Virus record (IMG/VR): IMGVR_UViG_3300031215_000036
Location: 1-35,581 of that record
Strand: one strand, 5' to 3'
From: a virus
Length of the DNA: 35,581 bases
Below are positions 12,764 to 35,581 of this stretch, in pieces. A model generated the notes under the pieces. The model made no database searches. It had not been told where the DNA came from and saw only the letters and a list, made by a program, of their open reading frames with translations. Positions within the stretch are counted from its first letter, which is position 1. Each line of letters starts with the position of its first letter. The translations under genes were made by a program, and so were the position numbers.

Positions 12764-15610
12764 GTGTATATAGATCAGCAGCGCATATTAGATGCCACCA
12801 ATGGCGGCCTGGACATCATTCTGGCTTACTATCCTGACGCTTATGAAGCGGTCAAAACCAAGGGTAAAAAATTCAAGCTCCGCAAAGACGAAAAGACCGC
12901 CAGTGCCACATTACGACTGCTATCCGATGGCAACTATGTTGTCACCGACTTTGGCGGTGATTCAAAGCCCCGCAATGCCATTCTCATCTGCATGGTCGAG
13001 GAAAGCCTCAGCTTCCATGACGCCATACAGAAGCTTGCCGCTGATTATAAGGTCACGCCAGAGGAGTACAACCCTGAGTTGTACAAGCCCGACATTGACA
13101 AGCGAGATGCCAAATCTGAGGAAAATGAAGGAGAGTGGTATTTCGACATTCGCAAGGGCTATACCGATTTCGAGATCAAGACAGTATTGGCGGAGAAGTC
13201 AATCCCTTATGTGAAGGATAAGGAGGCTAATGATGTCATCGACTATGACAAAGTAGCCAGGGTATTCCAGCAGTACCATTTCCACGCGCTCACATCTTAT
13301 AGCATTGTCAAAAACCGCAAGGTCACCACCATCAAGGCTACCGATAGCTACCCTATTTTCATGTGGGATGAAGGCAGCTTCAAGAAAATCTACCAGCCAT
13401 TCCACCAAGACAAAGGCTTCCGATTTATCTACTATGGCAAGCGGCCAAAGCAATTCCTTCATGGATTTCCCGCATGTCAGAAGGCTTATGATGAGCTTCA
13501 GCCAGATGCAATGCCTGAGCATGACGAGGAAGAGGCGAGCACTAAAAAAGCAACAGCCAAGCTTCCCGAGATAATGTATTGCTCCGGTGGATCTGATGCA
13601 CTCAACCTGGCCATGATCGGTTACGAGGTAGTATGGCCTAATAGTGAGACTGCCAAGCTCACCCTCAAAGAATTCAATAAGCTAAAAGGGCTCACCGACA
13701 AGGTGATCAACATCCCCGATATCGATGCTACCGGCAGGCGAGCAGCGCATCAGCTGGCCTTGGAATACCTCGAGTTGTACACACTCTACCTACCGGAATC
13801 CCTCTCCAGATACCGCGATCGGCGGGGCAACTTTTGCAAAGACGTCCGGGATTACCTCCGTTTTCACAACTGGTACGACTTCAAGCAGCTCATCAAGACA
13901 GCCCTGCCCTACCAGTTTTGGCGTGTCGAATACCTTCCCAAAAAAGGTGGTGGCTACAAGACCGCCTATTATGTTAAGAATACGAGGTTGTACAACTTCC
14001 TTGGCAAAAACGGCTTTGCCCGTCTGGAGATCGAAAATGAGAAGGACGGCTATATCTACATACAGATTGAGAACAACATAGTCCGTCAGATCAAAGCCAA
14101 TGACGTCAAAAACTATGTCCATGAGTTCCTCAAATCAAAAAAACTGGATGAGGATCTCCGAGATATGTTCTATCGCTCTACCCAGCTGGGTGATACCTCC
14201 ATGTCCAACCTTCCCATCATCGAGATTGATTTCACTGATTATGACAAGGATACTCAGTATTTCTTTTTTAAGAACTACACGATCAAAGTCACTGCTGGCA
14301 AGATCGAGGAGTTCAAGCCTGGCAAGATTGACAGGTATGTGTGGGAAGATGAGGTCATTGATCACAAGATGGAGCCTGATAAGCCTCAGTTCAAGATCAA
14401 CAAAGACAAGGATGGCCAGTGGGACATCAGTATCAAGAAAAAAGACAATCCATTCTTCAACTACCTGATCAATACATCGCGGATCCACTGGCGCAAAGAG
14501 CTTGAAGATCAGCTACAGGGCAAAAAAGCCGAAGAGCGAAATGCCTATTTGAAAAAACACCAGTTTGATATCGCCGGGCCTAACCTCTCTCCGGAGGAGC
14601 GCAAAGAGCAAAAAGCCCACTTGGTCAATAAGATTTATGCCCTGGGTTACCTATTACATCGCTATAGAGATCCCTCCAGACCATGGGCAGTCTTTGCTAT
14701 GGATAGCCGTGTCAGTGATGACGGCGAGTCTCATGGTGGGTCTGGTAAGTCGATCTGCTTTAAAGCTCCTCGATTGTTTATGAAATCGGTTACACTCGAT
14801 GGGCGAAAGCCGGATCTGACCAAGGATCAGTTTTTATATGAAAATGTCAACAGACATACAGATTACATACTCGTCGATGACGCCAACCAATACCTCAATT
14901 TTCAATTCTTTTTCTCAGCGCTGACTGGAGAACTCACCGTCAACCCTAAGAACAACAGGCGATTCGAAATGGCTTTTGAGGATGTCCCCAAGTTTGCCCT
15001 GACGTCCAATTTCGTAGTGCGCAATCTCGATAGCTCTACCGTTCGCAGGCTGCTGTACGTAGTATTCTCCGATTATTATCATAAAAATGCAAACGGCTTC
15101 TATGAGGAAGATCGCACAGTAGCCGATGAGTTCGGAAAAAACATCGTCCACAAAGATTACACAGATGACGAATGGAACGACTTCTACAGCTTCATGATCC
15201 AGTGTTGCCAGTTCTATCTCAATCACAGCAAAATCGAGCCACCGATGGACAATGTCCACAAGCGCAATCTGATATCCATCATGGGCAATGCCTTCCACGA
15301 ATGGGCCGATGTGTACTTCTCTGAAGATGCCGGCACGCTCAATGATTTTGTGATTCGCGTCGATGCATTTGAGGACTTCAAAAAAGGTACAAGATCCAAC
15401 TGGACTAGCCAAAAATTTGGCAAGGCCATCCACGCCTGGTGTGAATACTACGGCTATGAGCTCAACCCTAAAGATTACCACAATGATCAGGGCAGGATTA
15501 TCCGCAAGGTCACTAGAGACAGCCGAGATCGCGCCATGGAGATGCTCTTTATAAAAACAGTAAAAGACGTACCAGGAGACGTCAATCCACCATCTATAGC
15601 CCCATTCTGA
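12764..15610 (+). CDS. Primase-SF3 helicase fusion, phage replication protein
   Basis: This 948-residue protein starts at GTG. The N-terminal 100 residues resemble the substrate-binding part of DnaG-like phage primases (TATLRLLSDGNYVVTDFGG-type pattern). A TOPRIM-like region follows: EIMYCSGGSDALN near 270-285, then DIDATGR near 318-325. The C-terminal half is a superfamily 3 helicase. It has Walker A GGSGKS at 658-663, Walker B ILVDD at 702-706, sensor 1 around N749 (KFALTSNF) and an Arg pair (TVRRLLYVVF). It would unwind and prime phage DNA. Codons 737-754 are duplicated in a cargo gene near 20482. Confidence 0.9.
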   Translation: MYIDQQRILDATNGGLDIILAYYPDAYEAVKTKGKKFKLRKDEKTASATLRLLSDGNYVVTDFGGDSKPRNAILICMVEESLSFHDAIQKLAADYKVTPEEYNPELYKPDIDKRDAKSEENEGEWYFDIRKGYTDFEIKTVLAEKSIPYVKDKEANDVIDYDKVARVFQQYHFHALTSYSIVKNRKVTTIKATDSYPIFMWDEGSFKKIYQPFHQDKGFRFIYYGKRPKQFLHGFPACQKAYDELQPDAMPEHDEEEASTKKATAKLPEIMYCSGGSDALNLAMIGYEVVWPNSETAKLTLKEFNKLKGLTDKVINIPDIDATGRRAAHQLALEYLELYTLYLPESLSRYRDRRGNFCKDVRDYLRFHNWYDFKQLIKTALPYQFWRVEYLPKKGGGYKTAYYVKNTRLYNFLGKNGFARLEIENEKDGYIYIQIENNIVRQIKANDVKNYVHEFLKSKKLDEDLRDMFYRSTQLGDTSMSNLPIIEIDFTDYDKDTQYFFFKNYTIKVTAGKIEEFKPGKIDRYVWEDEVIDHKMEPDKPQFKINKDKDGQWDISIKKKDNPFFNYLINTSRIHWRKELEDQLQGKKAEERNAYLKKHQFDIAGPNLSPEERKEQKAHLVNKIYALGYLLHRYRDPSRPWAVFAMDSRVSDDGESHGGSGKSICFKAPRLFMKSVTLDGRKPDLTKDQFLYENVNRHTDYILVDDANQYLNFQFFFSALTGELTVNPKNNRRFEMAFEDVPKFALTSNFVVRNLDSSTVRRLLYVVFSDYYHKNANGFYEEDRTVADEFGKNIVHKDYTDDEWNDFYSFMIQCCQFYLNHSKIEPPMDNVHKRNLISIMGNAFHEWADVYFSEDAGTLNDFVIRVDAFEDFKKGTRSNWTSQKFGKAIHAWCEYYGYELNPKDYHNDQGRIIRKVTRDSRDRAMEMLFIKTVKDVPGDVNPPSIAPF

Positions 15611-15611
15611 T

Positions 15612-15899
15612 ATGAAACCTACCGAAATCAACATCTTCGACCGCCGATACATCCAGTGCCAGTACTTCTCCCATTTTCGCTTCGAAGATGGCAAGCGCCG
15701 CATGGATATGCCTTTCTGGGTACGATGTGCAGAGAGTGGAGTAGTCCACCTCATTCAGTATCACATCAGCAACGATACTGAGGTCAAGTGGCTCATGAGC
15801 CTTATTGAGGATGGCATGGTCTACATGCGATCTATAGATCATGCGCTGACACTTCCCAATGCCGAAAAGCTCAACGAAAAAACCACGCAGCATGCCTAA
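15612..15899 (+). CDS. Early-region protein of unknown function
   Basis: This 95-residue gene starts directly after the primase-helicase stop (TGATATG) and overlaps the next gene by eight bases. It has a beta-rich N-terminus (EINIFDRRYIQCQYFSHFRF) and no recognised motif. Tight packing in the early operon supports that it is expressed. It may be a small accessory replication or DNA-binding protein, but nothing in the sequence shows this. Confidence 0.6.
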   Translation: MKPTEINIFDRRYIQCQYFSHFRFEDGKRRMDMPFWVRCAESGVVHLIQYHISNDTEVKWLMSLIEDGMVYMRSIDHALTLPNAEKLNEKTTQHA

Positions 15900-16230
15900 G
15901 GAGACGACCATATTCACCGAAGCGCCCAAGTGTACGCTATGCCAGGATCGGCCAGCTGAGAAAAAGCAAAATGGCCGCTATAAAGATCGCTGCGAGCACT
16001 GCCTCAAGTATTTTAACAATGCCGGTGAGCCTTTCATTATTTATAAGACCACCTATGTCATGCGCCACCCAAAGGGCAAGGAGCATTGGTTTTGTTTCTT
16101 CGAAAACCACTGCTGCTCTGCCCCCATAGGTTATGGCAAGTACAAAGATCTACCGCTCAATGAAGTCCTTAAGTCCCTAGAAGAGTCCGGGCATATCATA
16201 GTAGACATCCATCCACCTGTAATGATCTGA
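15892..16230 (+). CDS. Small zinc-ribbon-like protein
   Basis: The ATG at 15892 overlaps the upstream stop and gives 112 residues. Two Cys pairs near the start, CTLC and CEHC about 22 residues apart, form a likely zinc ribbon; further Cys and His residues follow (HWFCFFENHCC). Such small treble-clef or ribbon proteins are common in phage early regions and often bind nucleic acid. The next gene starts two bases later. Function beyond metal binding is unknown. Confidence 0.65.
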   Translation: MPKETTIFTEAPKCTLCQDRPAEKKQNGRYKDRCEHCLKYFNNAGEPFIIYKTTYVMRHPKGKEHWFCFFENHCCSAPIGYGKYKDLPLNEVLKSLEESGHIIVDIHPPVMI

Positions 16231-16232
16231 TT

Positions 16233-16910
16233 ATGAAAATCCCAAAAAACATACTGCTTCTAGTCATCGCCCTGGTCATGCTCAACAATGTCGAGCACCT
16301 GGCACTCGTCCACTACACCATTGCACAGCGGCCATTCCCGATATTGGCTTTTGATTGGGTCAACAAAGCCCACAGCACACTTGTAGTCATCATTTTCGAG
16401 ATCGTCATTATCACCTTCGTACTCGCAGGTAAGAAAGGATTCTCGATATTCTTCACATGGTGCCTATTCATCCTCAGCATGATCTACTACGATGCACCAG
16501 GTTTGATGATCAGCGCCCGGCATCAGGATCTGGTAGCCGCCACCGTCTATAGCACCATCTACAGCATCAGCATTTACATGTTCAGTGAGATGCTCGCACA
16601 GTGGTACCATGAGCAGCGCATGGATCAGTTCGCACAAAAAAAGATTGATGGCCTTCGTGCAGACCTATCGGAAGCTCGTGAAGGATTGAAGCAATCAGCA
16701 ACAACAATCACCAAGCTTGAAGCAAGTCAGATCGAGTTGCAGCAGCTGCGCGTACAGCTGAAGCAGTACGAAAAAGAAAAGCAGGTAGCTCGAGAGCGGC
16801 TTACCTGCCCATTCTGCCACACATTTCAAGCGGAGACCGAAGGTCAGCTCAGGAGCCACAAGGGGCACTGCCCCGACAACCCAAAGAATTTATCATCTAA
16901 CAAACAATAA
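16233..16910 (+). CDS. Four-helix membrane protein with coiled coil and C2H2-like zinc finger
   Basis: This 225-residue protein begins with up to four membrane segments (about 5-22, 45-65, 70-88 and 100-122). They are followed by a cytoplasmic-type coiled coil (about 130-185, LRADLSEAREGLKQSA). It ends in a zinc-finger-like motif, CPFCHTF then RSHKGHC. This joins a membrane anchor to a probable nucleic-acid or protein-binding finger. In an early phage operon it might tether replication complexes to the membrane or take part in superinfection exclusion. Both ideas are inference. Confidence 0.7.
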   Translation: MKIPKNILLLVIALVMLNNVEHLALVHYTIAQRPFPILAFDWVNKAHSTLVVIIFEIVIITFVLAGKKGFSIFFTWCLFILSMIYYDAPGLMISARHQDLVAATVYSTIYSISIYMFSEMLAQWYHEQRMDQFAQKKIDGLRADLSEAREGLKQSATTITKLEASQIELQQLRVQLKQYEKEKQVARERLTCPFCHTFQAETEGQLRSHKGHCPDNPKNLSSNKQ

Positions 16911-16912
16911 TC

Positions 16913-17338
16913 ATGGAACAAACAACAGCCAATCCCCAATCAAAAACCACCTCAGCCGGCGCGGAAGCTACTCCCGTACCGCCCACCGCTGGCGCAAGCG
17001 TCTCGCTTGTGCCCTCACCTAACCTCCTAAGCCCCCTTATAGAAAATCTCGACGCTCTCAACATCCATTATACATGGGATCCCGAGTTCGAAGACGAAGG
17101 CTTACTGGTTATTAACAGCAAGCAGCACATAGGCAAGCACCATTACATAGGGATGACCATCAATAAGACCACTGGCGCCCTTGTAGAAATCGAATTTGAA
17201 TATGCCGCACTCAGGGTCTACGAATATTGCTATGGCAGGCTACCACAGGAAGCAATAGAAGAAATAATGGAATACGAACCTGGTAGCCCAGAGCAATTAA
17301 CAGTTGTCAAATCAGTAGCCAAAAGCATCCAATCATGA
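16913..17338 (+). CDS. Early protein with REP-derived N-terminal peptide
   Basis: This gene encodes 141 residues. The first 40 are low-complexity Thr/Pro/Ala/Ser and include AGASVSLVP at 26-34, which is the in-frame translation of a REP-like hairpin at 16989-17013. The remaining hundred residues form a compact acidic domain (HYTWDPEFEDEGLLVINS) with no recognised family. An identical REP peptide occurs in the glycosyltransferase-like protein at 29441. The REP probably inserted at the gene start without breaking the frame. Confidence 0.6.
   Translation: MEQTTANPQSKTTSAGAEATPVPPTAGASVSLVPSPNLLSPLIENLDALNIHYTWDPEFEDEGLLVINSKQHIGKHHYIGMTINKTTGALVEIEFEYAALRVYEYCYGRLPQEAIEEIMEYEPGSPEQLTVVKSVAKSIQS
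16963..17013. repeat. REP-like composite element (copy 1, inside a gene)
   Basis: A type-B motif (GGAAGCTACTCCCGT, 16963-16977) is followed by a type-A hairpin. Its arms are GGCGCAAGCG at 16991-17000 and CGCTTGTGCC at 17004-17013, with loop TCT. Five related hairpins occur in the window. Confidence 0.75.
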
Positions 17339-17351
17339 AAGCGCTAACGAC

Positions 17352-17669
17352 ATGATCTACCTCATCTCATCCATCATCTACATCCTCGGACTAGCGTTGT
17401 ACAAGCTACTATTACTCCTTGCCTGGCTAGTCTACCTCGTGACCCGGTCACTGACCTCTGTGCTGCAGTTCCATCGCAGTAGTGTGAGCCAAGACTGCAG
17501 GGCAGAGTGGCAGCTGCTCTTTATCGAAAAAAGAGTCACCGCCACTTCACCACGAGATCCTGAGGAAGAGGGTATCCCCAGCTGTACTTGCCAGGATCCG
17601 GGCTACTGCCATATCTGGTGCATCGCCAAGCATCGCTATACCAAAGCCGAAAACGGTATACGATCATGA
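17352..17669 (+). CDS. Membrane-anchored Cys-rich small protein
   Basis: This 105-residue gene has a long hydrophobic N-terminus (about 2-36, LISSIIYILGLALYKLLLLL). A short soluble part follows with Cys and His residues in CTCQDPGYCHIWC near 82-95, which could hold a metal. It overlaps the next gene by four bases (ATGA). Function is unknown; position in the early operon is the only context. Confidence 0.6.
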   Translation: MIYLISSIIYILGLALYKLLLLLAWLVYLVTRSLTSVLQFHRSSVSQDCRAEWQLLFIEKRVTATSPRDPEEEGIPSCTCQDPGYCHIWCIAKHRYTKAENGIRS

Positions 17670-17851
17670 AAAAGCCACCCTATACCCTTATGGAGTTGAC
17701 CTGGCTTGTCCGAGAGTCAGAGGACTACACCTTCCTCAAGCGCGTCAACATGGTCATTGTCGATTACCTCGATCGGTACACCTACGCCCAGCGCAAGGCC
17801 CTCAATGATATGATCCTTTTCCAGTACAATCAACTTACCCGACAGTTATGA
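17666..17851 (+). CDS. Small helical early protein
   Basis: The ATG at 17666 overlaps the upstream stop (ATGA) and gives 61 residues; a longer in-frame reading would run through the upstream gene. It looks all-helical (TLMELTWLVRESEDYTFLKR) and Tyr-rich. Its stop overlaps the following ATG by four bases. No family recognised. Confidence 0.6.
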   Translation: MKKPPYTLMELTWLVRESEDYTFLKRVNMVIVDYLDRYTYAQRKALNDMILFQYNQLTRQL

Positions 17852-18225
17852 TTCTCTCCTTCAAACCACAATTCGTAAAGCCAATAAAAGCGGGCACCAA
17901 GATTCACACCATTCGCAAAGATCCGCATGGCCGATGGAATCCAGGTCGAAAGATTCACTTTGCCACAGGGGTTCGTACCAAGCATTATGAGCAGTTCCGT
18001 TCCGGAGTGTGTGTTTCTACACAAGAGATCTATATCAAGTGGTGTAGCAGACATGGGCACTGGATGGGCGATACACTCACCTTTGTTGATGGTACGGCCG
18101 TCAAGTCTGATATCATCGAGCAGATAGCTATCAACGATGGCTTTGAATCCGTCCAAGACTTCTTCGCATGGTTCTCTGAGGACTTCTCAGGCAAGATTAT
18201 CCACTTCACCGACTTAAGGTATTGA
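17848..18225 (+). CDS. ASCH/PUA-like domain protein
   Basis: This 125-residue protein opens with ILSFKPQFVKPIKAGTKIHT followed by IRKD, the N-terminal pattern of ASCH domains, a PUA-like fold linked to RNA or modified-base binding and common in phages. A later segment, YIKWCSRHGHWMGDTLTFVD, and a helical C-terminus follow. It is coupled to its upstream neighbour by an ATGA overlap. A role in RNA or nucleotide handling early in infection is plausible. Confidence 0.65.
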   Translation: MILSFKPQFVKPIKAGTKIHTIRKDPHGRWNPGRKIHFATGVRTKHYEQFRSGVCVSTQEIYIKWCSRHGHWMGDTLTFVDGTAVKSDIIEQIAINDGFESVQDFFAWFSEDFSGKIIHFTDLRY

Positions 18226-18227
18226 TC

Positions 18228-18752
18228 ATGATCCTCTCCCAAGCATTAGACATAGCCAACCGTGTCCGCGACCAGCTCGCACCCCATTGCCAGCAGATCG
18301 AGATCGCAGGCAGCATCCGCCGCAAGCGACCAGAGGTCAAGGATATCGAGATAGTAGCCATCCCCAAGCCCTACGACGTAGGCCTGTTTGCATCAGGTAT
18401 CGCCACCATCGTACAGCAGTGGCCCAAGGTAAAGGGAGAGCTCCCCTGCAAGTATACCCAGCGCATCATCCTACCGGAAAAAATCAAGCTCGACCTGTTC
18501 TTCGCAGAGCCCGGCAACTGGGGACTGATCTACGCCATCCGTACCGGCTCAGCAGACTACAGTCACAAAGTCCTCGCCCACTCATGGGTAGTAAAAGGCT
18601 ACCATAGTAAAGGCGGATGGTTACACAAGAGCGGCCGTCCCATCGCCGTACCTACAGAGGAGCACCTCTTCAAGCTCTGCGGCCTCACCTACAGAGATCC
18701 CGAGAATCGAGAGCACTACGAAAGCCTCCAGCAGTTCATAACCAACCTATGA
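18228..18752 (+). CDS. DNA polymerase beta-type nucleotidyltransferase
   Basis: The ATG at 18228 gives 174 residues. The nucleotidyltransferase signature is clear: the GS pair in EIAGSIRRKRPEVKDIEIVA (G28-S29), acidic residues D39 and E41, and the third carboxylate D89 in IKLDLFF. A later stretch, GNWGLIYAIRTGSADYSHKV, matches phage Pol X-like proteins. It lacks the 8-kDa and fingers domains of full-length Pol X, so it is a minimal form that may extend DNA ends or gaps, or transfer single nucleotides. It overlaps the next gene by four bases. Confidence 0.8.
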   Translation: MILSQALDIANRVRDQLAPHCQQIEIAGSIRRKRPEVKDIEIVAIPKPYDVGLFASGIATIVQQWPKVKGELPCKYTQRIILPEKIKLDLFFAEPGNWGLIYAIRTGSADYSHKVLAHSWVVKGYHSKGGWLHKSGRPIAVPTEEHLFKLCGLTYRDPENREHYESLQQFITNL

Positions 18753-18922
18753 AAAAATACACCCCACAACAAATCATCAATGCGATCCGAGATAGCAATA
18801 CCCGGCAAGAGCTCCGCCACGTCAATGAAGCAGTGGCCGCCATAAAAAAAGAGTACAACCTGACCGACCTCAAAAAATTTCAAAACACCATCAGGTGCCG
18901 CTTCGATGATCTGAGGTATTAG
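18749..18922 (+). CDS. Small helical protein ending the early operon
   Basis: The ATG overlaps the upstream stop (ATGA) and gives 57 residues (MKKYTPQQIINAIRDSNTRQ...), mostly helical and basic. It is the last gene with phage-like base composition before the AT-rich cargo. The first attC-like site begins seven bases after its TAG. Function unknown. Confidence 0.55.
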   Translation: MKKYTPQQIINAIRDSNTRQELRHVNEAVAAIKKEYNLTDLKKFQNTIRCRFDDLRY

Positions 18923-18928
18923 AGGGTA

Positions 18929-19000
18929 TCTAACTACCAGATATGAGGCGTGAGCGTTGATTTAGTGCGGCTGGGAAATGCCTTCATATCGTATGTTAGA
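18929..19000 (+). other. attC-like recombination site 1
   Basis: The 72-bp imperfect palindrome begins with TCTAAC (18929-18934) and ends with GTTAGA (18995-19000). Inner arms GATATGAGGC (18940-18949) and GCCTTCATATC (18980-18990) pair with one unpaired base, a hallmark of attC single-strand sites. It marks the boundary between phage early genes and AT-rich cargo. Confidence 0.6.
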
Positions 19001-19054
19001 TTTTCGGGCGGTCAAATAGCACTATTCTTAATTATAGATTGCACTAAATAAAGA

Positions 19055-19156: not shown

Positions 19157-19582
19157 ATGAAAAGTTATGTGATTTTAAACTCTCAATCTGAAAAATTTAT
19201 GACTTACGATTTTAAGCCAGTAGATTTAAATGAAGCAGAAATATATGACGATATTAAATACGCAAAAAAACAAATAGGAAACGCTGGAGATGATTTTTGT
19301 AAAGTAATTGATATTGAAGATGCGGAAATTGAGATAGAAAAAATAAAAGGTGCAAAAAAAGAGCTTAATGATTTAGGCGGCATAAACTATTCTGCTCTAA
19401 AATATGGACAAAAATTCAAGGTTCTACATAAAGGATGGGAAGGGAAAACATTTACTCATCAGCCAGAAAAAGGTATATCAAGACAAAATAGAGTTACTCT
19501 TTATGAGTTTGAAAATTATGAAGGTGTTGTAACTAGTATATCTATGCAGATAGCAAGGGGTCTGAAAGTTGAGTTAATATGA
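19157..19582 (+). CDS. Cargo protein of unknown function
   Basis: This 141-residue protein uses AT-rich codons unlike the phage genes. The N-terminal half is acidic and helical (KSYVILNSQSEKFMTYDFK, then DDIKYAKKQIGNAGDD). The C-terminal half looks like a small SH3-type beta barrel (YSALKYGQKFKVLHKGWEGK). It overlaps the following helix-turn-helix gene by four bases, the usual arrangement of a two-gene toxin-antitoxin or regulator pair. Toxicity cannot be read from the sequence. Confidence 0.6.
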   Translation: MKSYVILNSQSEKFMTYDFKPVDLNEAEIYDDIKYAKKQIGNAGDDFCKVIDIEDAEIEIEKIKGAKKELNDLGGINYSALKYGQKFKVLHKGWEGKTFTHQPEKGISRQNRVTLYEFENYEGVVTSISMQIARGLKVELI

Positions 19583-19764
19583 CTACACGCCAAAAACTAA
19601 AATCCTACGGACTCGACTATCACAAGATAGCCGAGTTCTTCGGGTATAATTCCAACACTTTTTCAGCAACAAGCTCAAGAAATAGAATCGAAGAGGGTGT
19701 TTTGAAAGTTGTTGAACACATTAAGGCAATGGAAGATCAAGGCACACAAGAGCCTGAAATCTAA
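19579..19764 (+). CDS. Small Xre-like helix-turn-helix protein (cargo unit A)
   Basis: This 61-residue protein has an Xre-type fold: DYHKIAEFFGYNSNTFSATS as the helix-turn-helix, and a second helix in RIEEGVLKVVEHIKAMED. It ends in DQGTQEPEI, almost the same tail as the regulator at 20742. Its TAA stop lies inside the CTAAC box at 19761. The paired palindromes upstream of the operon are the obvious candidate targets for autoregulation, which is inference. Confidence 0.65.
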   Translation: MTTRQKLKSYGLDYHKIAEFFGYNSNTFSATSSRNRIEEGVLKVVEHIKAMEDQGTQEPEI

Positions 19765-19985
19765 CTGAATAATATAAAAAGCGTTTTGATGATTTTTATG
19801 TATTGTTATATAATGTGTGGCGAGTACCGTGAGAGTAAGGCTAACCCCCTTATGCACGTAAAGCGAAAGGCTAACAAGCCAACACTCCTTAATCTATGCA
19901 AAAAGACCTTGTTGGGCATGGCGATGGCGGTCGATATCATCGGGGGAACGGGCGTGGAAAGCCACATATTTTATAAAGTGTTAGC
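19760..19985 (+). other. attC-like site 2, long and partly degenerate
   Basis: TCTAAC at 19760-19765 and GTTAGC at 19980-19985 frame a GC-richer gene-free stretch. Inside it, TATATAATGTGTGGC (19807-19821) pairs with GCCACATATTTTATA (19961-19975) at 13 of 15 positions. GGCTAAC occurs twice more within. At 226 bp it is longer than a usual attC and may contain a nested or decayed site. Confidence 0.4.
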
Positions 19986-20037: not shown

Positions 20038-20280
20038 ATGAAACTATTTAAAACACTTAAAAGCTATACATTATATACTTTGTTATTAGCCTTTTTGGTT
20101 TCTTGTAGCAATACTGTTGAGGAAAAACAAGTAATTAATGAGAATTTTAATCACCAACTTTATAATCTTAAAGGAGGTTGGCAATATACAACAGTAGAAT
20201 TTGAAGGACACACTTACCTTTGTAATTCTAATGGTGGAATTATACATGTAGAATCTTGTAAATGTAAAAATGGCTTATAA
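20038..20280 (+). CDS. Small lipoprotein (cargo unit B)
   Basis: This 80-residue protein has a lipoprotein signal ending in LAFLVSC, lipidated Cys near residue 23. A short domain with four more Cys or His residues follows (HTYLCNSN, ESCKCKNG). It stands alone between two attC-like sites, as a one-gene cassette would. Its TAA stop falls within TATAACG, the start of site 3. Envelope-located; function unknown. Confidence 0.65.
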   Translation: MKLFKTLKSYTLYTLLLAFLVSCSNTVEEKQVINENFNHQLYNLKGGWQYTTVEFEGHTYLCNSNGGIIHVESCKCKNGL

Positions 20281-20421: not shown

Positions 20422-20745
20422 ATGAAACGAGTTAACAGATTCCAGAAAATCAAAGAAAATCAAACTAAAGTAGCTTCAATAGCCTTTGAGGATGTCCCGA
20501 AGTTTGCCCTGACGTCCAATTTCGTAGTGCGCAATCACTTTAAAAACAAGAAAATGGAAACTTACAGCGTACAAATCAAGGGTCAGTAAAAGCATATTTC
20601 AGGAAACAGCTTTGAAAATAAAACAAAATCTCAAGTAAATGCAATCATTGAAAGATACTGGGATGAAGATTACCCAAAACCTCAATTTAATGGGGAATCT
20701 TGGGAGCTTAATAACGATCAGTATATCAGAATTGAAAAAGCATGA
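20422..20745 (+). pseudogene. Chimeric cargo gene with helicase fragment and in-frame stop
   Basis: Translation from ATG 20422 gives MKRVNRFQKIKENQTKVASI, then 18 residues identical to the phage helicase (AFEDVPKFALTSNFVVRN), then a new stretch, and a TAA at 20587-20589. The same frame stays open past that stop for 51 codons (ISGNSFENKTKSQVNAIIER...) and ends in an ATGA overlap with the next regulator. The likely history is an intact gene disrupted by a 55-bp insertion and a nonsense change. Two alternatives are a short 55-residue product, or a second start at 20554 that also meets the TAA. Confidence 0.6.
20482..20536 (+). repeat. 55-bp copy of the phage helicase sensor-1 segment
   Basis: The segment matches 14972-15026 at 53 of 55 bases. 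Both differences (GCT/GCC and CCC/CCG) are silent third positions, and the reading frame is kept, so 18 residues are identical. It lies in AT-rich cargo about 5.5 kb from the source gene. Confidence 0.95.
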
Positions 20746-20969
20746 CTGAACACGAAAAATTCAATAAACTACTGAATCAGTTAGGAGATCGAAAAGACCT
20801 AGCTAATTGCTTAGGCGTTAGTATTGGAAATGTACATAACCTACTAAAACCTAGTCGTGATTTACCCACATGGGCAAAGGCTATGCTCTACGTGCAAAAG
20901 CGTTGGCAAAACAAAAACGGTGAAGAACCGGATCAGCCAGATCAAGGCACTCAAGAGCCTGAAAGCTAA
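20742..20969 (+). CDS. Small Xre-like helix-turn-helix protein (cargo unit C)
   Basis: This 75-residue protein contains a helix-turn-helix, LGDRKDLANCLGVSIGNVHN. The C-terminus is Asp/Glu/Gln-rich and ends in DQGTQEPES, matching the regulator at 19579 in both protein and DNA. It overlaps the end of the broken gene upstream (ATGA), so it was once its translation partner. The TAA stop lies inside GCTAAC of the next attC-like site. An antitoxin or autoregulator role is plausible. Confidence 0.65.
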   Translation: MTEHEKFNKLLNQLGDRKDLANCLGVSIGNVHNLLKPSRDLPTWAKAMLYVQKRWQNKNGEEPDQPDQGTQEPES

Positions 20970-21026
20970 CGAATGGTGGTATGTTATCTCCATCCTGAAA
21001 GGTGGTGGAATATACCACATGTTAGC
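20965..21026 (+). other. attC-like recombination site 4
   Basis: GCTAAC (20965-20970) and GTTAGC (21021-21026) close a 62-bp palindrome. The left arm GAATGGTGGTAT pairs with ATACCACAT, with GA and G unpaired, the bulge pattern expected for attC. A further GCGTTGGC follows at 21043. It lies directly upstream of the CRISPR-like operon. Confidence 0.65.
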
Positions 21027-21089
21027 CATCTGGTTGTTTTTAGCGTTGGCAAAAATGCCTTTTGAGCGTAGAATTTTAAAATTTAATAT

Positions 21090-21752
21090 ATGAAACATAC
21101 ATGTGAACAGATTTATGAAATTGGAGCTAAAAACAAGGTTTACGGCTCTGAAAAAGGTATTTGTCGAATAACAGGCAAAGAAAGTGTAGGCTTGCAGTTT
21201 AATAAATGGGTAAAGGATACTTTCAATGACCATGACCGACTTTATCCAGGAACAATTATCTCGAATGAAGCAATGTTTTGTTTCGATGAAGCTTCTGAGA
21301 TAGTTCAGCGAAAAACTGGAAGAGATAAACTTCAAAGATTCAGAACATACTCGCATATAATTAAAGATGGTGAGTGGCACTGTATTACAAAAGCAGATAA
21401 ACCTCAAATTCTACAGTTAATTGTTGAAGGTGCTGAAATGGTTTGCTTAACCGAAACTGGACAGAAACACGTGCTTTTTAAGCATAAAACGGGCATGTGG
21501 CAGCTCAATGAGTTGCATGTAAAACCCAATGTTGAATTACTCGGATTGCTGCATTATCACATGTGCGAATTACTTGCTTACCAATTTTCACAAGCTGAAA
21601 TTATTACAGGAGATTATAAATCAAATCGTATTTTAAAAGCAGGTTTAGAAAATTGGCAAAAACACGAAAACACAATTAAAGAATACCGGGGGAGTGGAAT
21701 ATTTGACTTTACGGCATTCATGTTATTCACCGATAAAAACTATTTAAAATGA
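21090..21752 (+). CDS. csf1: Csf1-like protein (Cas8-type) of a type IV-B CRISPR-Cas complex
   Basis: This 220-residue protein is the first gene of the operon. It carries features I associate with Csf1: an N-terminal ICRITGK segment, DTFNDHDRLYPGTIISNEA, QRFRTYSHII and a later CLTETGQKHVLFKHKTGMWQ. Csf1 is the small Cas8-like subunit of type IV complexes. Csf1 proteins usually carry a zinc-finger-like Cys cluster, but here only single Cys residues (5, 25, 64, 98, 119) are seen and no CxxC pair. Its stop overlaps the next ATG. The call depends partly on the gene order that follows. Confidence 0.7.
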   Translation: MKHTCEQIYEIGAKNKVYGSEKGICRITGKESVGLQFNKWVKDTFNDHDRLYPGTIISNEAMFCFDEASEIVQRKTGRDKLQRFRTYSHIIKDGEWHCITKADKPQILQLIVEGAEMVCLTETGQKHVLFKHKTGMWQLNELHVKPNVELLGLLHYHMCELLAYQFSQAEIITGDYKSNRILKAGLENWQKHENTIKEYRGSGIFDFTAFMLFTDKNYLK

Positions 21753-22102
21753 AAGTATCACAAGAATTAGTTGCTGAAAACCTATTATGGGGACTTTGGC
21801 GAAGTATTACAGAGGATTACAAATGCCGGTATCCTAGTGAAATTTGGGAGCATTACGAAAATGCTTTACGTTCGGCAAGCTATACCGATAGTTTGAAAGT
21901 ATTCTTAACCAATTTTCAACGCCGAATACCTATTGATATTCAAGCACAATACAATAAAGATATTCTTTCTGTTGTAGAAGCTGGCGAAGATGATACGATA
22001 TTGAACTGGTTAAGAACAGAAACAACTTACCTAACCATGTTGGTTAGGCTAAGAAATCAAGAAAGAAAAGAATCCATTAAATTTCAAAACGGAGAATTAT
22101 GA
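21749..22102 (+). CDS. cas11: Cas11-like small subunit
   Basis: This 117-residue protein appears to be nearly all helix (LVAENLLWGLWRSITEDYKC, TDSLKVFLTNFQRR, ILNWLRTETTYLTMLVRLRN). That size, fold type and position, between csf1 and csf2 and coupled to both by ATGA overlaps, fit the Cas11 small subunit that lines the belly of type IV-B filaments. Small subunits diverge fast, so the call is by context rather than motif. Confidence 0.6.
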   Translation: MKVSQELVAENLLWGLWRSITEDYKCRYPSEIWEHYENALRSASYTDSLKVFLTNFQRRIPIDIQAQYNKDILSVVEAGEDDTILNWLRTETTYLTMLVRLRNQERKESIKFQNGEL

Positions 22103-23001
22103 AAACCTATGTTTTACAAGGAACTTGCACTGCTTTAAGTTCAATAAGCCACAATGGAGGCGAAAAAAACGGAACGATTGTTCAGTTGCGACGCGAAAAA
22201 TTTGTACAGCCAAAAGGCAAAGTTGTTGAAGTACCTGTAATTTCAGGTAACAGTATTAGAGGTAAAATAAGAGACCTTGCCGCAATTGACATTCTTACTA
22301 AAGCCGATGGTATAAAAGTTCAGGTAGATGCCGACAACTTCAACTTATTATTTTCAGGCGGCTCACTCGAAAGTACAGGAGGGAAAAACCTTGATATTGA
22401 AAAAGTACGCCAAATGCGTAAGGACATACCAATGATTTCAGTTTTAGGATGCTCAATAGGGAATGTAATTGTGCCTGGCAAAGTTGATATTGGTAAGATG
22501 ATTCCGATTTGTAAGGAAACACTTCATCTAATACCTGAAAAATTTCACGGAAAGTCAGAAATTAAAACGATTTGGGAGTATTGTCAGGTTGAAATGAATA
22601 CACGTAAAGATGACACTAAGGACGAGAATAAGCGTGAGTTTATTAAAAAAGAAGCCTTGACCGAAGATTTGCGAGGCGGTCAAATGATGTATCACATTGA
22701 AACGCTTGTGGCTGGAACACGATTTTATTGGAAAATTTGTTTACGAGACACTACTGATATTGAAAATGGAGCTTTCCTTTCAATTTTACAAAGCTGGGCG
22801 GCTCAAAGTTCACAGGTTGGCGGCAATGGACGTGTTGGTCATGGACGTTTGAAAGTTGATTTAACCGAAACATCGGTGGTTGATTCTGAAATAAAGTTTG
22901 AAAACTCCGACTTTGTTAAATACATCGACAAAGCTACAGATGCAAAAAAAGACGTGACTAATTACTTTGAAAAAGGATTATCGAAACAACTTTTTGAGTA
23001 A
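22099..23001 (+). CDS. csf2: Csf2 (Cas7) RAMP backbone protein, type IV-B CRISPR-Cas
   Basis: This 300-residue RAMP protein has the Cas7/Csm3 start: a first strand (YVLQGTCTALSSISHNGG) and VPVISGNSIRGKIRD at 45-59. The Gly-rich loop QVGGNGRVGHGR is at 239-250. Cas7 subunits coat guide RNA and form the backbone. The acidic stretch DTKDENKREFIKKEALTED could be a thumb loop. The gene overlaps cas11 upstream by four bases and shares one base with the CysH-like gene downstream (TAATG). This is the most secure CRISPR-type call in the operon. Confidence 0.85.
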   Translation: MKTYVLQGTCTALSSISHNGGEKNGTIVQLRREKFVQPKGKVVEVPVISGNSIRGKIRDLAAIDILTKADGIKVQVDADNFNLLFSGGSLESTGGKNLDIEKVRQMRKDIPMISVLGCSIGNVIVPGKVDIGKMIPICKETLHLIPEKFHGKSEIKTIWEYCQVEMNTRKDDTKDENKREFIKKEALTEDLRGGQMMYHIETLVAGTRFYWKICLRDTTDIENGAFLSILQSWAAQSSQVGGNGRVGHGRLKVDLTETSVVDSEIKFENSDFVKYIDKATDAKKDVTNYFEKGLSKQLFE

Positions 23002-23666
23002 TGGATAAAAAAACAGCTTTCCTTTATGCCCAATTAAAACCTTATAAAGCCCTTGTAAATAAAACAAGTGGTTTTATAAAATGGGCATTAGAACGTATTG
23101 AAAATCCTTACGTAGCGTGTTCTTTCGGGAAAGATAGCGCTGTAATGCTCCATCTAATTATGCAACAAGCACCTGATATTAAAATTCGTTTTATTAGGTG
23201 GAATTTTGAAACTGAATTTATTGATAATTACGATGAAGTTATATCCGCATGGGGAGAGTTAAATTTAGAACAAGTTGAATTTAGTCGTGAATTTTTATCC
23301 GATAAAAGAAAAGATAGGTATGATACGGTAGGGCATGACAGTTATTTTATAGGGCTTAGAAAAGATGAAAGTGTTGCTCGTAGAATTACTCTAAAAAAGC
23401 ATGGCATGTTTTTCAAAAACAAAGCAGATATGATTCGTATTTCGCCACTTGCAGATTGGAATGAAAAAGATATAGCTGCTTACATGTACGCAAACTACCT
23501 TCCAATACTCAATACCTATTTAGAGCATGGTAGCCAGTCGAGAACTGCAAGTAGGATACCTCGTGAAGATTTTGGTATCCGCCAATCTTTTTTAACCGAT
23601 TTAAAACAACGTGATTTTTCATCTTACCAAAAATTAATTAATCATTTTCCAGAAATAATATCATGA
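23001..23666 (+). CDS. cysH: CysH/PAPS-reductase-like ATP-pyrophosphatase of the CRISPR operon
   Basis: This 221-residue protein carries the PP-loop SFGKDS at 41-46, which binds and splits ATP to AMP and pyrophosphate. It also has YFIGLRKDES with a following Arg pair and PLADWNEKDIAAYMYANYLP, as in PAPS-reductase relatives. The C-terminal redox Cys motif of true PAPS reductases is absent, so sulfate reduction is unlikely. CysH-like genes are a known companion of type IV-B loci, but their substrate is unknown; adenylation or thiolation of RNA or a nucleotide is possible. It is coupled to csf2 and csf3 by overlaps. Confidence 0.82.
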   Translation: MDKKTAFLYAQLKPYKALVNKTSGFIKWALERIENPYVACSFGKDSAVMLHLIMQQAPDIKIRFIRWNFETEFIDNYDEVISAWGELNLEQVEFSREFLSDKRKDRYDTVGHDSYFIGLRKDESVARRITLKKHGMFFKNKADMIRISPLADWNEKDIAAYMYANYLPILNTYLEHGSQSRTASRIPREDFGIRQSFLTDLKQRDFSSYQKLINHFPEIIS

Positions 23667-24322
23667 ACAAACCATTTAGAAATCTAAGAATAAGAGCCTA
23701 TTTAAAAACAGGCGTAATAAGCGACCAATACTTACCGCTCGACGGAATACTATACTACCACTTAGTACGCAGTGAAATGGGAGAGGAAGTAATAACAAAG
23801 AGCCGTGAAAGCAGTGTAAGGCAAGGGGCAAACATAACACTACCTATTCAGAAGTCTGGACCTAAAAACGACTTATGGTTTTATGCCTGCTCATTCGCTC
23901 AATTTCCCGAATCGGTTGTTGAAGATTCAAGCTTTAAAGTAAAATCGGGTGATTGGCTAAAGCACAGCCAACACTTTAAAGCAAATAATAAGATTGATAT
24001 ACAGCGAGGTAAATTCAAAAACGCACATATAAAGCTTTATTATAGGCATTGTGAGTATATTGACTGGTATTGTGTTGGATGGCCTGATAAGCTTACTGAA
24101 TTGCTACAATTCTGTACCAATCTGGGTAAAAATTCAGGCGATGGATGGGGAGAAGTATTAAGATGGGAAGTAATTGAATGGCCTGAAGATTGGAGCGTGA
24201 GAGGTCATGGTAACAAGCTAATGCGCAACGTCCCTCTAAAACAAGACGGTAATGGAATTATGTACGGAATGCGACCAAGCTACTGGAATCCAAGGCACAT
24301 TGCTGTTTGTAAGTTACCGTGA
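23663..24322 (+). CDS. csf3: Csf3 (Cas5) RAMP protein, type IV-B CRISPR-Cas
   Basis: This 219-residue protein has LPLDGIL at 24-30, which I associate with Csf3. The RAMP Gly-rich segment is LGKNSGDGWGEVLRWEV at about 154-170. Cas5-type subunits cap the 5' handle of the guide RNA. It is the last gene of the operon, overlapping the CysH-like gene by four bases and ending 12 bases before a perfect 15-bp hairpin. No Cas6-type processing enzyme or DinG helicase follows, as expected for subtype IV-B and not IV-A. Confidence 0.78.
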   Translation: MNKPFRNLRIRAYLKTGVISDQYLPLDGILYYHLVRSEMGEEVITKSRESSVRQGANITLPIQKSGPKNDLWFYACSFAQFPESVVEDSSFKVKSGDWLKHSQHFKANNKIDIQRGKFKNAHIKLYYRHCEYIDWYCVGWPDKLTELLQFCTNLGKNSGDGWGEVLRWEVIEWPEDWSVRGHGNKLMRNVPLKQDGNGIMYGMRPSYWNPRHIAVCKLP

Positions 24323-24334
24323 GCGTTGGAAAAG

Positions 24335-24373
24335 AAAGCAAAGAGTGCCTTTTTCGGCACTCTTTGCTTTGTG
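24335..24373 (+). terminator. Strong hairpin ending the CRISPR-like operon
   Basis: Perfect 15-bp arms lie at 24335-24349 (AAAGCAAAGAGTGCC) and 24356-24370, with loop TTTTTC. The right arm itself ends in CTTT; on the other strand the stem is followed by CTTTT, so it could stop transcription both ways. GCGTTGG flanks it on both sides. Confidence 0.65.
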
Positions 24374-24414
24374 CGTTGGAGAAATGCCGGGTCGGCAAGG
24401 AAAAAACAACTTGT

Positions 24415-24546
24415 GGCTAACGGTATATGTATAAGGTGTGTAGCCTTGATAGGCAACTAATTAAGCAAATGAGCAAAAACTTAAATAAGAACAATAACTA
24501 ATTAAATATTAACCAAGTGGCTATACACTTTATACGGTGTTATTCC
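24415..24546 (+). other. attC-like recombination site 5
   Basis: GGCTAACGG at 24415-24423 and GTGTTATTCC at 24537-24546 frame arms GTATAAGGTGTGTAGCC (24429-24445) and GGCTATACACTTTATAC (24519-24535). These pair at 15 of 17 positions. It follows the CRISPR-like operon, so sites 4 and 5 enclose it. GTTAGCCAC at 24990 also matches the left end and may be an alternative outer partner. Confidence 0.5.
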
Positions 24547-30466: not shown

Positions 30467-30497
30467 ATCTGATCCTCCATCGTCATTGCGCACAGCT

Positions 30498-30551
30498 GGC
30501 GCGCGTGTGTCACGCGTGCCCAATATTAGTACTGCCGAGGAAGTTACTTCC
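30498..30551. repeat. REP-like composite element (copy 4)
   Basis: Type-A arms GGCGCGCGTG (30498-30507) and CACGCGTGCC (30511-30520) surround TGT, and type-B GGAAGTTACTTCC lies at 30539-30551. It overlaps the likely start of the next gene. Confidence 0.75.
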
Positions 30552-31019: not shown

Positions 31020-31046
31020 CAAATTCCCTCACAACTGGCTGATGCT

Positions 31047-31069
31047 GGCGCGCGTCTGTGACGCGTGTC
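31047..31069. repeat. REP-like hairpin (copy 5)
   Basis: GGCGCGCGTC (31047-31056) and GACGCGTGTC (31060-31069) flank TGT. It directly precedes the tandem 56-bp repeats. Confidence 0.7.
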
Positions 31070-31235
31070 TACGCCATGGTTCGTGTCTCACAAACCATAA
31101 TACAGAGGATTTTAAAGGAAATACCTACGCCATGGTTCGTGTCTCACTAACCATAATACAGAGGATTTTAAAGGAAATACCTACGCCATGGTTCGTGTCT
31201 CACTAACCATAATACAGGGATTTTAAAGGAAATAC
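31069..31235. repeat. Three tandem 56-bp palindromic repeats
   Basis: Units lie at 31069-31124, 31125-31180 and 31181-31235 (the last lacks one base). They differ only at one A/T position and one deletion. Each contains a hairpin: ATGGTTCGTG, loop TCT, then CACTAACCAT. There are no unique spacers between units, so this is not a CRISPR array. Confidence 0.9.
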
Positions 31236-31265
31236 AAAATAAATCAATCTTTTTGTGCAAAACGC

Positions 31266-31322
31266 TTGTTTACCCAAAATAAAGAGTTATATTTGTAGTG
31301 AAGTTAGCAACGAAGCTACTTC
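31266..31322 (+). promoter_or_regulatory. Cargo promoter with palindrome in the leader
   Basis: TTG at 31266-31268 and TATATTTG at 31288-31295 match the Bacteroidota -33 and -7 elements with a 19-base spacing. Just downstream, GAAGTTAGC (31300-31308) pairs with GCTACTTC (31315-31322), a type-B REP-like palindrome in the leader. Confidence 0.65.
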
Positions 31323-31336
31323 GAAAAATAAAAGAC

Positions 31337-31669
31337 ATGACTTATACAGTAAAAAACAAACAGCACGAACAAGACAATATTAGTTTTATTGACGTGACTT
31401 CTGCAAAAGAAGAATTACCTTCTTTTTTGGATTATAAAAAAGTTTTAGAACATTCTTTAAAGAGCAAAAATATCACAAGCGAAAAAGACATTAAAAGCCT
31501 TTGTGATGGCGGAGACCATTTAGAGCCTTATTTTAGCGAAAATACAGCAGCTTACGAATGTGCAATGTATGTTGAATACACTCCATTTGTAACAATAGAC
31601 GATGAAGGCGAAGAGGTTGAAAAAACTTTGGACTTTGATTCTGAAACCGAAGAATACGAACTTTTTTAA
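31337..31669 (+). CDS. Acidic cargo protein in the late region
   Basis: The ATG at 31337 lies after the -7 element and gives 110 residues; an in-frame GTG at 31298 is too close to the promoter. It is AT-rich and acidic, ending in a Glu/Asp run (IDDEGEEVEKTLDFDSETEE). No motif is recognised. It is followed one base later by a second small gene, suggesting a two-gene cassette. Its acidity would suit a DNA mimic or antitoxin, but nothing proves this. Confidence 0.55.
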   Translation: MTYTVKNKQHEQDNISFIDVTSAKEELPSFLDYKKVLEHSLKSKNITSEKDIKSLCDGGDHLEPYFSENTAAYECAMYVEYTPFVTIDDEGEEVEKTLDFDSETEEYELF

Positions 31670-31670
31670 C

Positions 31671-31871
31671 ATGGCATTCTGGTTTTTAAATAAAGAGACA
31701 AACACCGCTAAAATATACGGCGGTGTTTCTGCTCTCTTAAAGCACGAAGACATTGAGCCAACTCATAAAAGTAAATTGCAAGAAAACTTCTCACGTAAGA
31801 AATTAAACGCATTCGAGGATGATGTATATAGAATTGAACGTTGTGAAGTATTAACAACGAAATCCAAATAA
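31671..31871 (+). CDS. Small basic cargo protein
   Basis: The ATG at 31671 follows the upstream TAA by one base and gives 66 residues. It is basic and aromatic (AFWFLNKETNTAKIYGGVSA), the opposite in charge to its neighbour, as in some toxin-antitoxin pairs. The stop overlaps the left end of an attC-like site (ATCCAAATAAG). Function unknown. Confidence 0.5.
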   Translation: MAFWFLNKETNTAKIYGGVSALLKHEDIEPTHKSKLQENFSRKKLNAFEDDVYRIERCEVLTTKSK

Positions 31872-31975
31872 GTTTGAAAAACTTAAAGCGGGCGGGGCTT
31901 TGCTTTTTTTTTGTTCCAATTACCTACGAACTTAAATACGAGAGCTAAACCCCGCTTGCTACTAACGTGTTGGAT
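31863..31975 (+). other. attC-like recombination site 6
   Basis: ATCCAA at 31863-31868 and GTTGGAT at 31969-31975 form the ends; the right end fits GTTRRRY exactly. Inner arms AAGCGGGCGGGG (31887-31898) and CCCCGCTT (31950-31957) pair with bulges. It closes the small late cargo unit. Confidence 0.55.
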
Positions 31976-32021
31976 ATGGGTTGATTATCTACGACTTAAT
32001 AAAACTAAACTTCGATAAACC

Positions 32022-32234
32022 ATGGGAACAAAAATGAACAAGGAATCTTATCAAAAATTAATTGATGAAGACTTAGAATGGCTTAATCAACAGCCTAGAA
32101 CTTTGGAAAGAATGCACATTGCGGATATTGTCAAAGAATCAATTGATTTTCACTACCCTAAACCAGTAGATAATTTACCTATATCTGGTGTTGTTGTGCC
32201 GAAGGGTACCTCAACCGATGGCGCGCGTCTGTGA
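32022..32234 (+). CDS. Small cargo protein truncated by a REP element
   Basis: This 70-residue reading (or 66 from the ATG at 32034) is helical at first (YQKLIDEDLEWLNQQPRTLE). Its last codons and TGA stop come from REP copy 6 at 32220, so the natural C-terminus has probably been replaced. It lies between attC-like site 6 and the small terminase gene. The family is not recognised; part of an antitoxin-like protein is possible. Confidence 0.45.
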   Translation: MGTKMNKESYQKLIDEDLEWLNQQPRTLERMHIADIVKESIDFHYPKPVDNLPISGVVVPKGTSTDGARL

Positions 32235-32242
32235 CGCGTGTC
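32220..32242. repeat. REP-like hairpin (copy 6)
   Basis: GGCGCGCGTC (32220-32229) and GACGCGTGTC (32233-32242) around TGT match copy 5. It ends 38 bases before the terminase small subunit start and supplies the stop of the upstream gene. Confidence 0.7.
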
Positions 32243-35086: not shown

Positions 35087-35533
35087 ATGGCTGACGATAG
35101 GAAGACAAATATTTATAAAGTTATGGAAATAGAGAAAATAATATACGATACCACCAGAGAAATATATAGTGTTGAAGATAAATTAAGTATTGCTACTGTT
35201 TTTATATTCTGCGATAAAATAGGAAGTGTTCAAATGGCTGAATTACTTTATACAGATAACCACGAAAAATTGGTTAAAAATCTAAATTTAAAATATGTTG
35301 ATTTTGATGTTGATTTTTCTATAAGATTTGATAATAAAAATGTGAACAATAGTTTTTATAAAACACTCGAAAAGGTAAGAGAAAAAGAAGATGCAAATGG
35401 TTACTACAAAGCATTATTTAATAAAGACCCTTATGCACTTATAATAGCTGATATAGTGAATTACAATTTTGATAAGGTAGAATTTAAAAAGTTTACTAAA
35501 AAAGTTAACGAACAATTATCACTTTGCTTTTAG
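35087..35533 (+). CDS. AT-rich cargo protein of unknown function
   Basis: The ATG at 35087 gives 148 residues; ATG 35123 is an alternative start. It is rich in Lys, Asp, Asn and Phe, helical at the start (YKVMEIEKIIYDTTREIYSV), with no signal peptide or recognised motif. Its low GC content contrasts sharply with the terminase gene. Flanking palindromes suggest it is a single-gene cassette. TAACGTGTTG 16 bases downstream resembles the end of site 6, so another site may begin there. Confidence 0.55.
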   Translation: MADDRKTNIYKVMEIEKIIYDTTREIYSVEDKLSIATVFIFCDKIGSVQMAELLYTDNHEKLVKNLNLKYVDFDVDFSIRFDNKNVNNSFYKTLEKVREKEDANGYYKALFNKDPYALIIADIVNYNFDKVEFKKFTKKVNEQLSLCF

Positions 35534-35581
35534 CGTAATAATGATAACGTGTTGAAGGCAAAAAAATAATTGTAGTTAACG

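Follow-up and report, generated by a model that had tools for sequence, protein, structure and literature searches.

Exchange of the accessory gene in array-less type IV-B CRISPR-Cas operons carried by Bacteroidota phages

In the type IV-B CRISPR-Cas complex of Mycobacterium, the only one for which assembly with RNA is known to us, Csf2 and Cas11 form a filament on non-CRISPR RNAs of ~55–60 nt (PMC7937560). Published IV-B loci are nearly universally associated with a CysH-like protein (PMC7937560, PMC8175902), and CasCysH was proposed to AMPylate the bound nucleic acid (PMC8175902). CRISPR biology has yet to settle what IV-B systems do, and above all what their near-universal CysH-like protein contributes. 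IV-B loci in viruses have been published for the Bathyarchaeia Fuxivirus (PMC10848311), and type IV systems were noted in prophages and lytic phages (PMC10848311, PMC11656645). We found a further viral locus in the cultured Skermania phage SPI1 (KR011061, L026 4840–8473, orf40–44), where the genes are annotated as hypothetical proteins; SPI1 could serve as an experimental model of phage IV-B. Here we analysed a IV-B operon in the IMG/VR virus record IMGVR_UViG_3300031215_000036, a contig of 35,581 bases that is referred to as the window. A first-pass annotation of this contig had proposed that a phage-borne copy would extend the range of IV-B, which it took to be mainly plasmids of other phyla. 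That claim of novelty is weaker than it was put, since viral IV-B was already known from Fuxivirus and SPI1.

The segment 21090–24322 is a complete array-less type IV-B operon of the order csf1-cas11-csf2-cysH-csf3 (Table 1). The five successive open reading frames (ORFs) on the plus strand overlap by 4, 4, 1 and 4 nt, with limits exactly as given in the first-pass annotation. Profile searches of all five proteins matched the families expected for subtype IV-B. The core proteins Csf1, Csf2 and Csf3 as well as Cas11 were recognised by PADLOC, and Csf2 and Csf3 also by NCBIfam, the latter two matches lying below the strict NCBIfam cut-offs. Csf1 was kept in 10 relatives. The cysH-like accessory gene lacks the catalytic cysteine of the reductase. 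All five operon ORFs were accounted for and no adaptation genes, cas6, dinG or cas10 were present in the locus (PADLOC scan of the operon ORFs). The gene order had been said to fit IV-B. All genes are present, but the position of cysH between csf2 and csf3 is a variant of the usual, not strictly defining order csf1-cas11-csf2-csf3-cysH. The order csf2-csf3-cysH was seen in the plasmid, archaeal and actinophage loci L054, L055, L058, L060, L062–L064 and SPI1.

Scans with Csf2, Csf3, Csf1 and CysH yielded about 30 further viral or Bacteroidota loci, of which those found by the CysH query are unusable for frequencies. A clear IV-B Csf2 was present in 2 genomes of a sample of 395 from Bacteroidota. 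The closest genomic relative was L013 from a Bacteroidales metagenome-assembled genome (MAG), with 89% identity in Csf2. Among the relatives the core proteins are up to 80–90% identical, but the gene that separates csf2 from csf3 varies. CysH occupies this accessory position in the window, L007, L008, L009, L021 and others, and a diverged CysH (~30% identity) was found there in L004 and L012. In L005 an IbrA/IbrB-like pair, consisting of a DUF3440 3'-phosphoadenosine 5'-phosphosulfate (PAPS) reductase and a ParB-like protein, stands in the accessory position and is followed by CysH. A pair of the same kind comes after csf3 of the IV-B locus on a Natrinema plasmid (L061 6710–8784). Five loci (L003, L010, L011, L013 and the partly deleted L092) carry a class I S-adenosylmethionine (SAM) methyltransferase of ~155 aa instead of cysH. 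No locus contained methyltransferase and CysH together, and every complete locus of the window clade examined had one or the other in the accessory position, never both. At the nucleotide level the window and L013 are homologous up to 23008 and again from 23663, the two limits of cysH, and in close relatives the methyltransferase frames overlap csf2 and csf3 like cysH does.

When Csf1, Cas11, Csf2 and Csf3 were concatenated, the maximum-likelihood tree had the methyltransferase loci in at least 3 separate places: L003 together with L013, L010 as sister of the cysH-bearing L009 (support 100) and L011 as sister of the cysH-bearing L012 (98). L092 branched far from the other methyltransferase loci in the Csf3 tree. 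We concluded that the accessory gene was exchanged repeatedly and that methyltransferase and CysH are mutually exclusive. Compared with close relatives, the ratio of non-synonymous to synonymous substitution rates (dN/dS) was 0.02–0.10 for the four core genes (csf1 ~0.06–0.08, cas11 0.07–0.10, csf2 0.02–0.05), ~0.12 for the methyltransferase and 0.25–0.32 for CysH, figures that are approximate as dS was near or above 1. Rough as they are, the contrast is large: the Cas core is under strong purifying selection and CysH evolves faster, so that a conserved platform stands against a fast-changing, exchangeable enzyme. Near-identical Csf cores that each carry a different enzyme form a natural series, in which the accessory position is the experimental variable.

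The exchanged genes might also be passengers. In that case cysH, the methyltransferase and the IbrA/IbrB-like genes would be cargo in their own right (anti-restriction or metabolic genes, for instance) that inserted between csf2 and csf3 without a link to the function of the complex. Small genes are readily gained by phages, and extra unrelated ORFs are found between csf1 and cas11 in L003, L008 and L013. Mainly because L092 keeps its methyltransferase without csf2 we still give this explanation some weight. It does not account for the constant presence of either CysH or methyltransferase in the complete loci of the window clade, for the overlap of the accessory frames with their neighbours or for the near-universal CysH association in published IV-B (PMC7937560, PMC8175902). 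Relatives of the methyltransferase were moreover not found elsewhere in IMG/VR and in the phage and plasmid collections, apart from three weak matches in the 395 Bacteroidota genomes. We consider passenger genes quite unlikely.

The inserts between csf1 and cas11 (L013 9391–9675, L008 3207–3554, L003 2138–2554) mark a second variable position in the operon, and some of them resemble helix-turn-helix (HTH) or zinc-finger proteins. At L092 5890–7516 a truncated csf1 directly abuts an intact methyltransferase gene, which is followed by csf3; the loss of cas11 and csf2 is due to deletion or to assembly collapse. L083 2380–3054 is a solitary csf1, 77% identical to that of the window, with no other csf gene on the fetched part of the contig. 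The distant loci L106, L107, L110 and L059 encode an enlarged Csf2 (~400–480 aa); the one of L059 has a match to the Cas11 profile, which suggests Csf2-Cas11 fusions.

Three elements are conserved among the aligned methyltransferases: the SAM motif, as YAG-G or FAGTG, an acidic strand-2 end, and the motif D-x-D-[SAP]-Y. An AlphaFold2 model was confident, with a predicted local distance difference test (pLDDT) score of 82.8, and matched class I methyltransferases in Foldseek at E ~1e-7, including TYW2 (3a27). With the Rossmann fold taken from the predicted model, SAM motif I and the acidic strand-2 end, the proteins of L003, L010, L011, L013 and L092 all belong to the class I SAM methyltransferases. 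The profile search gave TYW2/PH0793 at 2e-4 and a weak Trm1. Pfam matches to TRM5-TYW2, RrnaAD and TRM were weak and mostly below cut-off; L011 alone passed one cut-off (RrnaAD), and none of the matches to the Trm5/TYW2/Trm1 families exceeded the curated threshold. An assignment to RNA methylation would accordingly be one of resemblance, not of membership. In IMG/VR the methyltransferase was found only in the accessory position. The 395 Bacteroidota genomes gave one strong match, in position in the L013 genome, besides the three weak ones. Scans of the phage and plasmid collections gave no match, and the idea of a widespread phage gene was rejected. The methyltransferase scan missed L092 and is thus not exhaustive.

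The CysH protein of the window keeps the PP-loop SFGKDS, as had been read from the sequence before. Its sole cysteine (C40) is not conserved and the alignment is without a C-terminal cysteine. The AlphaFold2 model (pLDDT 89.8) matched the folds of PAPS reductase, FAD synthase and CysD, and its neighbours included the tRNA-modifying PP-loop enzymes NcsA, TtuA and TilS.

Our preferred reading, which we hold tentatively and at somewhat below even confidence, is that of a phage-borne array-less IV-B effector whose accessory enzyme modifies nucleic acid and is used in conflict, with exchange of the enzyme as a means of escape. The gene content, the phage context, the purifying selection on the core, the repeated exchange and the mutual exclusivity of methyltransferase and CysH are the observations it starts from. 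By analogy with the Mycobacterium IV-B structure, Csf2 and Cas11 would build an RNA-binding filament with Csf3 and Csf1 as caps. The complex may load short RNAs that come from the host or from rival elements and are not encoded in an array of the phage. The protein encoded between csf2 and csf3 would be the enzymatic output and would chemically modify nucleic acid that the complex holds or recognises. For the window, the putative enzyme is a CysH-like PP-loop ATPase without catalytic cysteine, probably adenylating its substrate; in the sister phages a Trm5/TYW2/Trm1-like methyltransferase might do a comparable job. The complex would be used in conflict with RNA-guided defences of the host or with competing elements, and a change of enzyme could allow escape from counter-adaptation or from resistant substrates. 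Because a methyltransferase stands in place of CysH, the output suggested for the IV-B complex is chemical modification of nucleic acids rather than cutting.

The same replacement argues against a pure sponge and against a pure binding repressor. As a sponge for guide RNAs, the Csf complex would soak up small RNAs of the host (crRNAs, Argonaute guides) without sequence preference and thereby blind RNA-guided defences, while the accessory protein would just stabilise or mark the captured RNA. In its favour, the RNAs bound by the Mycobacterium IV-B complex are short, heterogeneous and not crRNAs, such a role was put forward before (PMC7937560, PMC8175902), and the window is without an array. It leaves unexplained that an enzyme gene is retained and yet exchanged for an unrelated enzyme, and that several loci adjoin packaging and head genes, which are usually expressed late. 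We regard the sponge as unlikely. Alternatively, the complex could take crRNAs from host arrays and repress rival phages or plasmids by DNA binding, as in IV-A. IV-A shuts down plasmid genes without cutting and obtains spacers in trans (PMC11656645), and the Fuxivirus IV-B has a mini-array (PMC10848311). On the other side, the IV-B complex that was studied ignored co-expressed crRNAs, and neither the surroundings of the operon, nor the rest of the window, nor a further 28 loci (up to ~20 kb each) showed a CRISPR array or mini-array, which agrees with the array-less locus first described. Borrowed guides are in our judgement decidedly unlikely, and an exchangeable enzyme is needed neither by them nor by a sponge.

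A 56-nt repeat at 31069–31235 was considered as a CRISPR array and turned out to be a plain tandem repeat. No tRNA or Rfam family was found near the operon. Homology beyond the genes amounts to ~70 nt upstream and 100 nt downstream and is common to essentially L013 only; for this reason a conserved non-coding RNA was rejected as a general guide.

Several points weigh against a nucleic-acid-modifying effector. The counts are small, with five methyltransferase loci, and part of the cysH loci came from the scan with CysH itself; the dN/dS values share the roughness given above. Methyltransferase and CysH have no recognisable similarity, and it is from position and exclusivity alone that we infer a common purpose. 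In L092 the methyltransferase has stayed intact despite the absence of cas11 and csf2, which would fit either an action independent of the complex or a decaying or misassembled locus. IV-B CysH-like proteins have also been called inactivated (PMC11656645). A wider and rather unlikely version of the idea is that IV-B could serve generally as an RNA-loaded platform that delivers enzymes modifying nucleic acids, the chemistry being interchangeable at a single position (PP-loop adenylation by CysH, Trm5/TYW2-like SAM methylation, the IbrA/IbrB-like pair). It would be a CRISPR-derived analogue of guide-RNA-directed RNA modification, spread between Bacteroidota phages, possibly as integron-type cassettes.

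Apart from distant terminase, tape-measure and a few other protein matches, the window genes outside the operon are not shared with the phages carrying IV-B. The operon was inserted in the terminase/portal interval (L010), beside the terminase (L008, L012), beside the portal (L053) or next to recombination genes (L013), and some IV-B insertions were at lysis genes. From the differing sites and the unshared other genes we concluded that the operon moves between phages, that is, among otherwise dissimilar Bacteroidota phages.

Carriage as a cassette is suggested by attC-like palindromes nearby (Table 1). The palindrome that borders the low-GC island on the left scored 14, and 0 of 10 shuffles reached 11 or more. 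For this palindrome and for the one just upstream of the operon, the bottom strand folded better than shuffled sequences. The homology to L013 begins at GTTAGCC, the right end of the palindrome just upstream of the operon, and ends at GGCTAACGG after csf3; at that downstream position L013 has a strong attC-like site (z -2.6). The detector used recovers three attC-like sites in the region of phage TJE1 that is a CALIN (an attC cluster without integrase), but some of its hits in AT-rich DNA are probably false. That phages carry attC clusters is established (PMC9892861). No PF00589 match to an integron integrase, tyrosine recombinase or phage integrase was found in the window, which is thus not a complete integron and is compatible with a CALIN. 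That the operon travels as an integron-type gene cassette is plausible, not proven.

Table 1. Features of the type IV-B operon and of the neighbouring palindromes in the window.
Feature	Position	Strand	Evidence or sequence
attC-like palindrome, left border of low-GC island	18928..19001	+	ATCTAAC...GTTAGAT, fits RYYYAAC/GTTRRRY; bottom-strand fold z = -2.5
attC-like palindrome just upstream of operon	20964..21027	+	AGCTAAC...GTTAGCC; bottom-strand fold z = -4.0; deviates from consensus motif
csf1 (large subunit, 220 aa)	21090..21752	+	PADLOC typeIV_Cas8 1.6e-6
cas11 (small subunit, 117 aa)	21749..22102	+	PADLOC typeIV_Cas11 (Cas11_1_IV) 2.2e-20
csf2 (Cas7 backbone, 300 aa)	22099..23001	+	PADLOC typeIV_Cas7 2.9e-69; NCBIfam cas7_csf2 6.6e-25
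cysH-like PP-loop ATPase (221 aa), exchangeable accessory position	23001..23666	+	PF01507 (PAPS_reduct) 4.5e-15
csf3 (Cas5, 219 aa)	23663..24322	+	PADLOC typeIV_Cas5 8.5e-44; NCBIfam cas5_csf3 2.8e-17
Perfect palindrome after csf3, possible terminator	24337..24371	+	AAAGCAAAGAGTGCC-TTTTTC-GGCACTCTTTGCTTT in the sequence itself
Possible degenerate attC-like site downstream of csf3 (weak)	24414..24543	+	GGCTAACGG; fold not significant, z = -0.5

Two small HTH-type ORFs upstream of the operon (19579–19764 and 20742–20969) end in nearly the same 32-nt sequence, AGATCAAGGCACNCAAGAGCCTGAAANCTAAC (19734–19765, 20939–20970), as if they came from similar cassettes. The very end of the contig, 35503–35581, is a strong attC-like palindrome (AGTTAACG...AGTTAACG).

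The contig carries genes for a tape measure protein, an endolysin, a head maturation protease and a terminase. Relatives of the ORF at 33179–34936 occur in 48 phage records, with hardly any from outside Bacteroidota (Flavobacterium, Cellulophaga, Porphyromonas, Polaribacter, Bacteroides), and the L012 homologue of this ORF matches the terminase large subunit. Because these terminase relatives are Bacteroidota phages almost throughout, the contig is, judged by its genes, a Bacteroidota phage, as had been claimed. The operon sits in a low-GC island at ~19.0–24.4 kb (33–37% GC compared with ~43–52% over most of the contig) with positive GC skew. It was said to lie between phage replication and head genes. 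The phage context, including the head maturation protease, is real, but no Pfam or PHROGs match supports a replication function of the genes at 12764–18922. A second IMG/VR record (L002) contains the same block, co-linear and with 100% identity, and in the independent Bacteroidales MAG (L013) the operon stands in a different context. Misassembly of the flanks was therefore rejected, with the caveat that the two IMG/VR records may share one assembly. A comparison with L073, the closest phage in its head protease (50%), yielded no clean empty site, as another variable block fills the corresponding place there.

An 80-aa predicted lipoprotein (LVSC, lipobox-like), encoded at 20038–20280, stands alone in the low-GC island and could be a surface-exclusion factor. 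A second low-GC insert at 31046–32240 has the same 22-nt palindrome, TGGCGCGCGTCTGTGACGCGTG, at both borders and holds the 56-nt tandem repeat in 3 copies (31069–31235). A third, near-identical copy of the palindrome is at 30497–30518; none is expected by chance.

Like the phage CALINs (PMC9892861), the locus may be a phage-carried cassette bounded by attC-like palindromes; unlike them, it comprises an operon of five genes, has just two strong sites among those proposed and lies on a contig without integrase. The accessory methyltransferase shares with the tRNA methyltransferases TYW2, Trm5 and Trm1 the class I SAM fold, the YAG-G motif and a D-x-D-[SAP]-Y motif resembling that of Trm1. It differs from them by its length of ~155 aa, by having no separate RNA-binding domain and by the weak sequence similarity. 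The Fuxivirus IV-B (PMC10848311) is likewise virus-encoded with a CysH-like gene; it belongs to an archaeal virus, its cysH lies beside csf3 at the end of the locus and it has a one-spacer mini-array. SPI1 also carries its IV-B genes on a phage, but its host is actinobacterial, the order is csf2-csf3-cysH and the Csf2 identity is 34%.

The literature covered, the 2025 classification (PMC12669027) among it, makes no mention of a methyltransferase in the CysH position, but this coverage leaves aside the main type IV surveys (gkz1197, Moya-Beltran 2021), which may contain an earlier one. With type IV-B of Mycobacterium sp. JS623 and of Rhodococcus, Thermococcus and other plasmids the operon has csf1, cas11, csf2, csf3 and a cysH-like gene in common, and like these it is without array, adaptation genes, cas6 and nuclease. 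Unlike the plasmid loci it has a Bacteroidota phage as carrier, and its cysH follows csf2 and precedes csf3 instead of coming after it; Csf2 is only ~29–34% identical to the plasmid copies, and sister phages swap cysH for a methyltransferase. Phage-borne IV-B itself is not new; judged from the sequences compared, what appears to be new here is that the gene occupying the cysH site is swapped among related phages.

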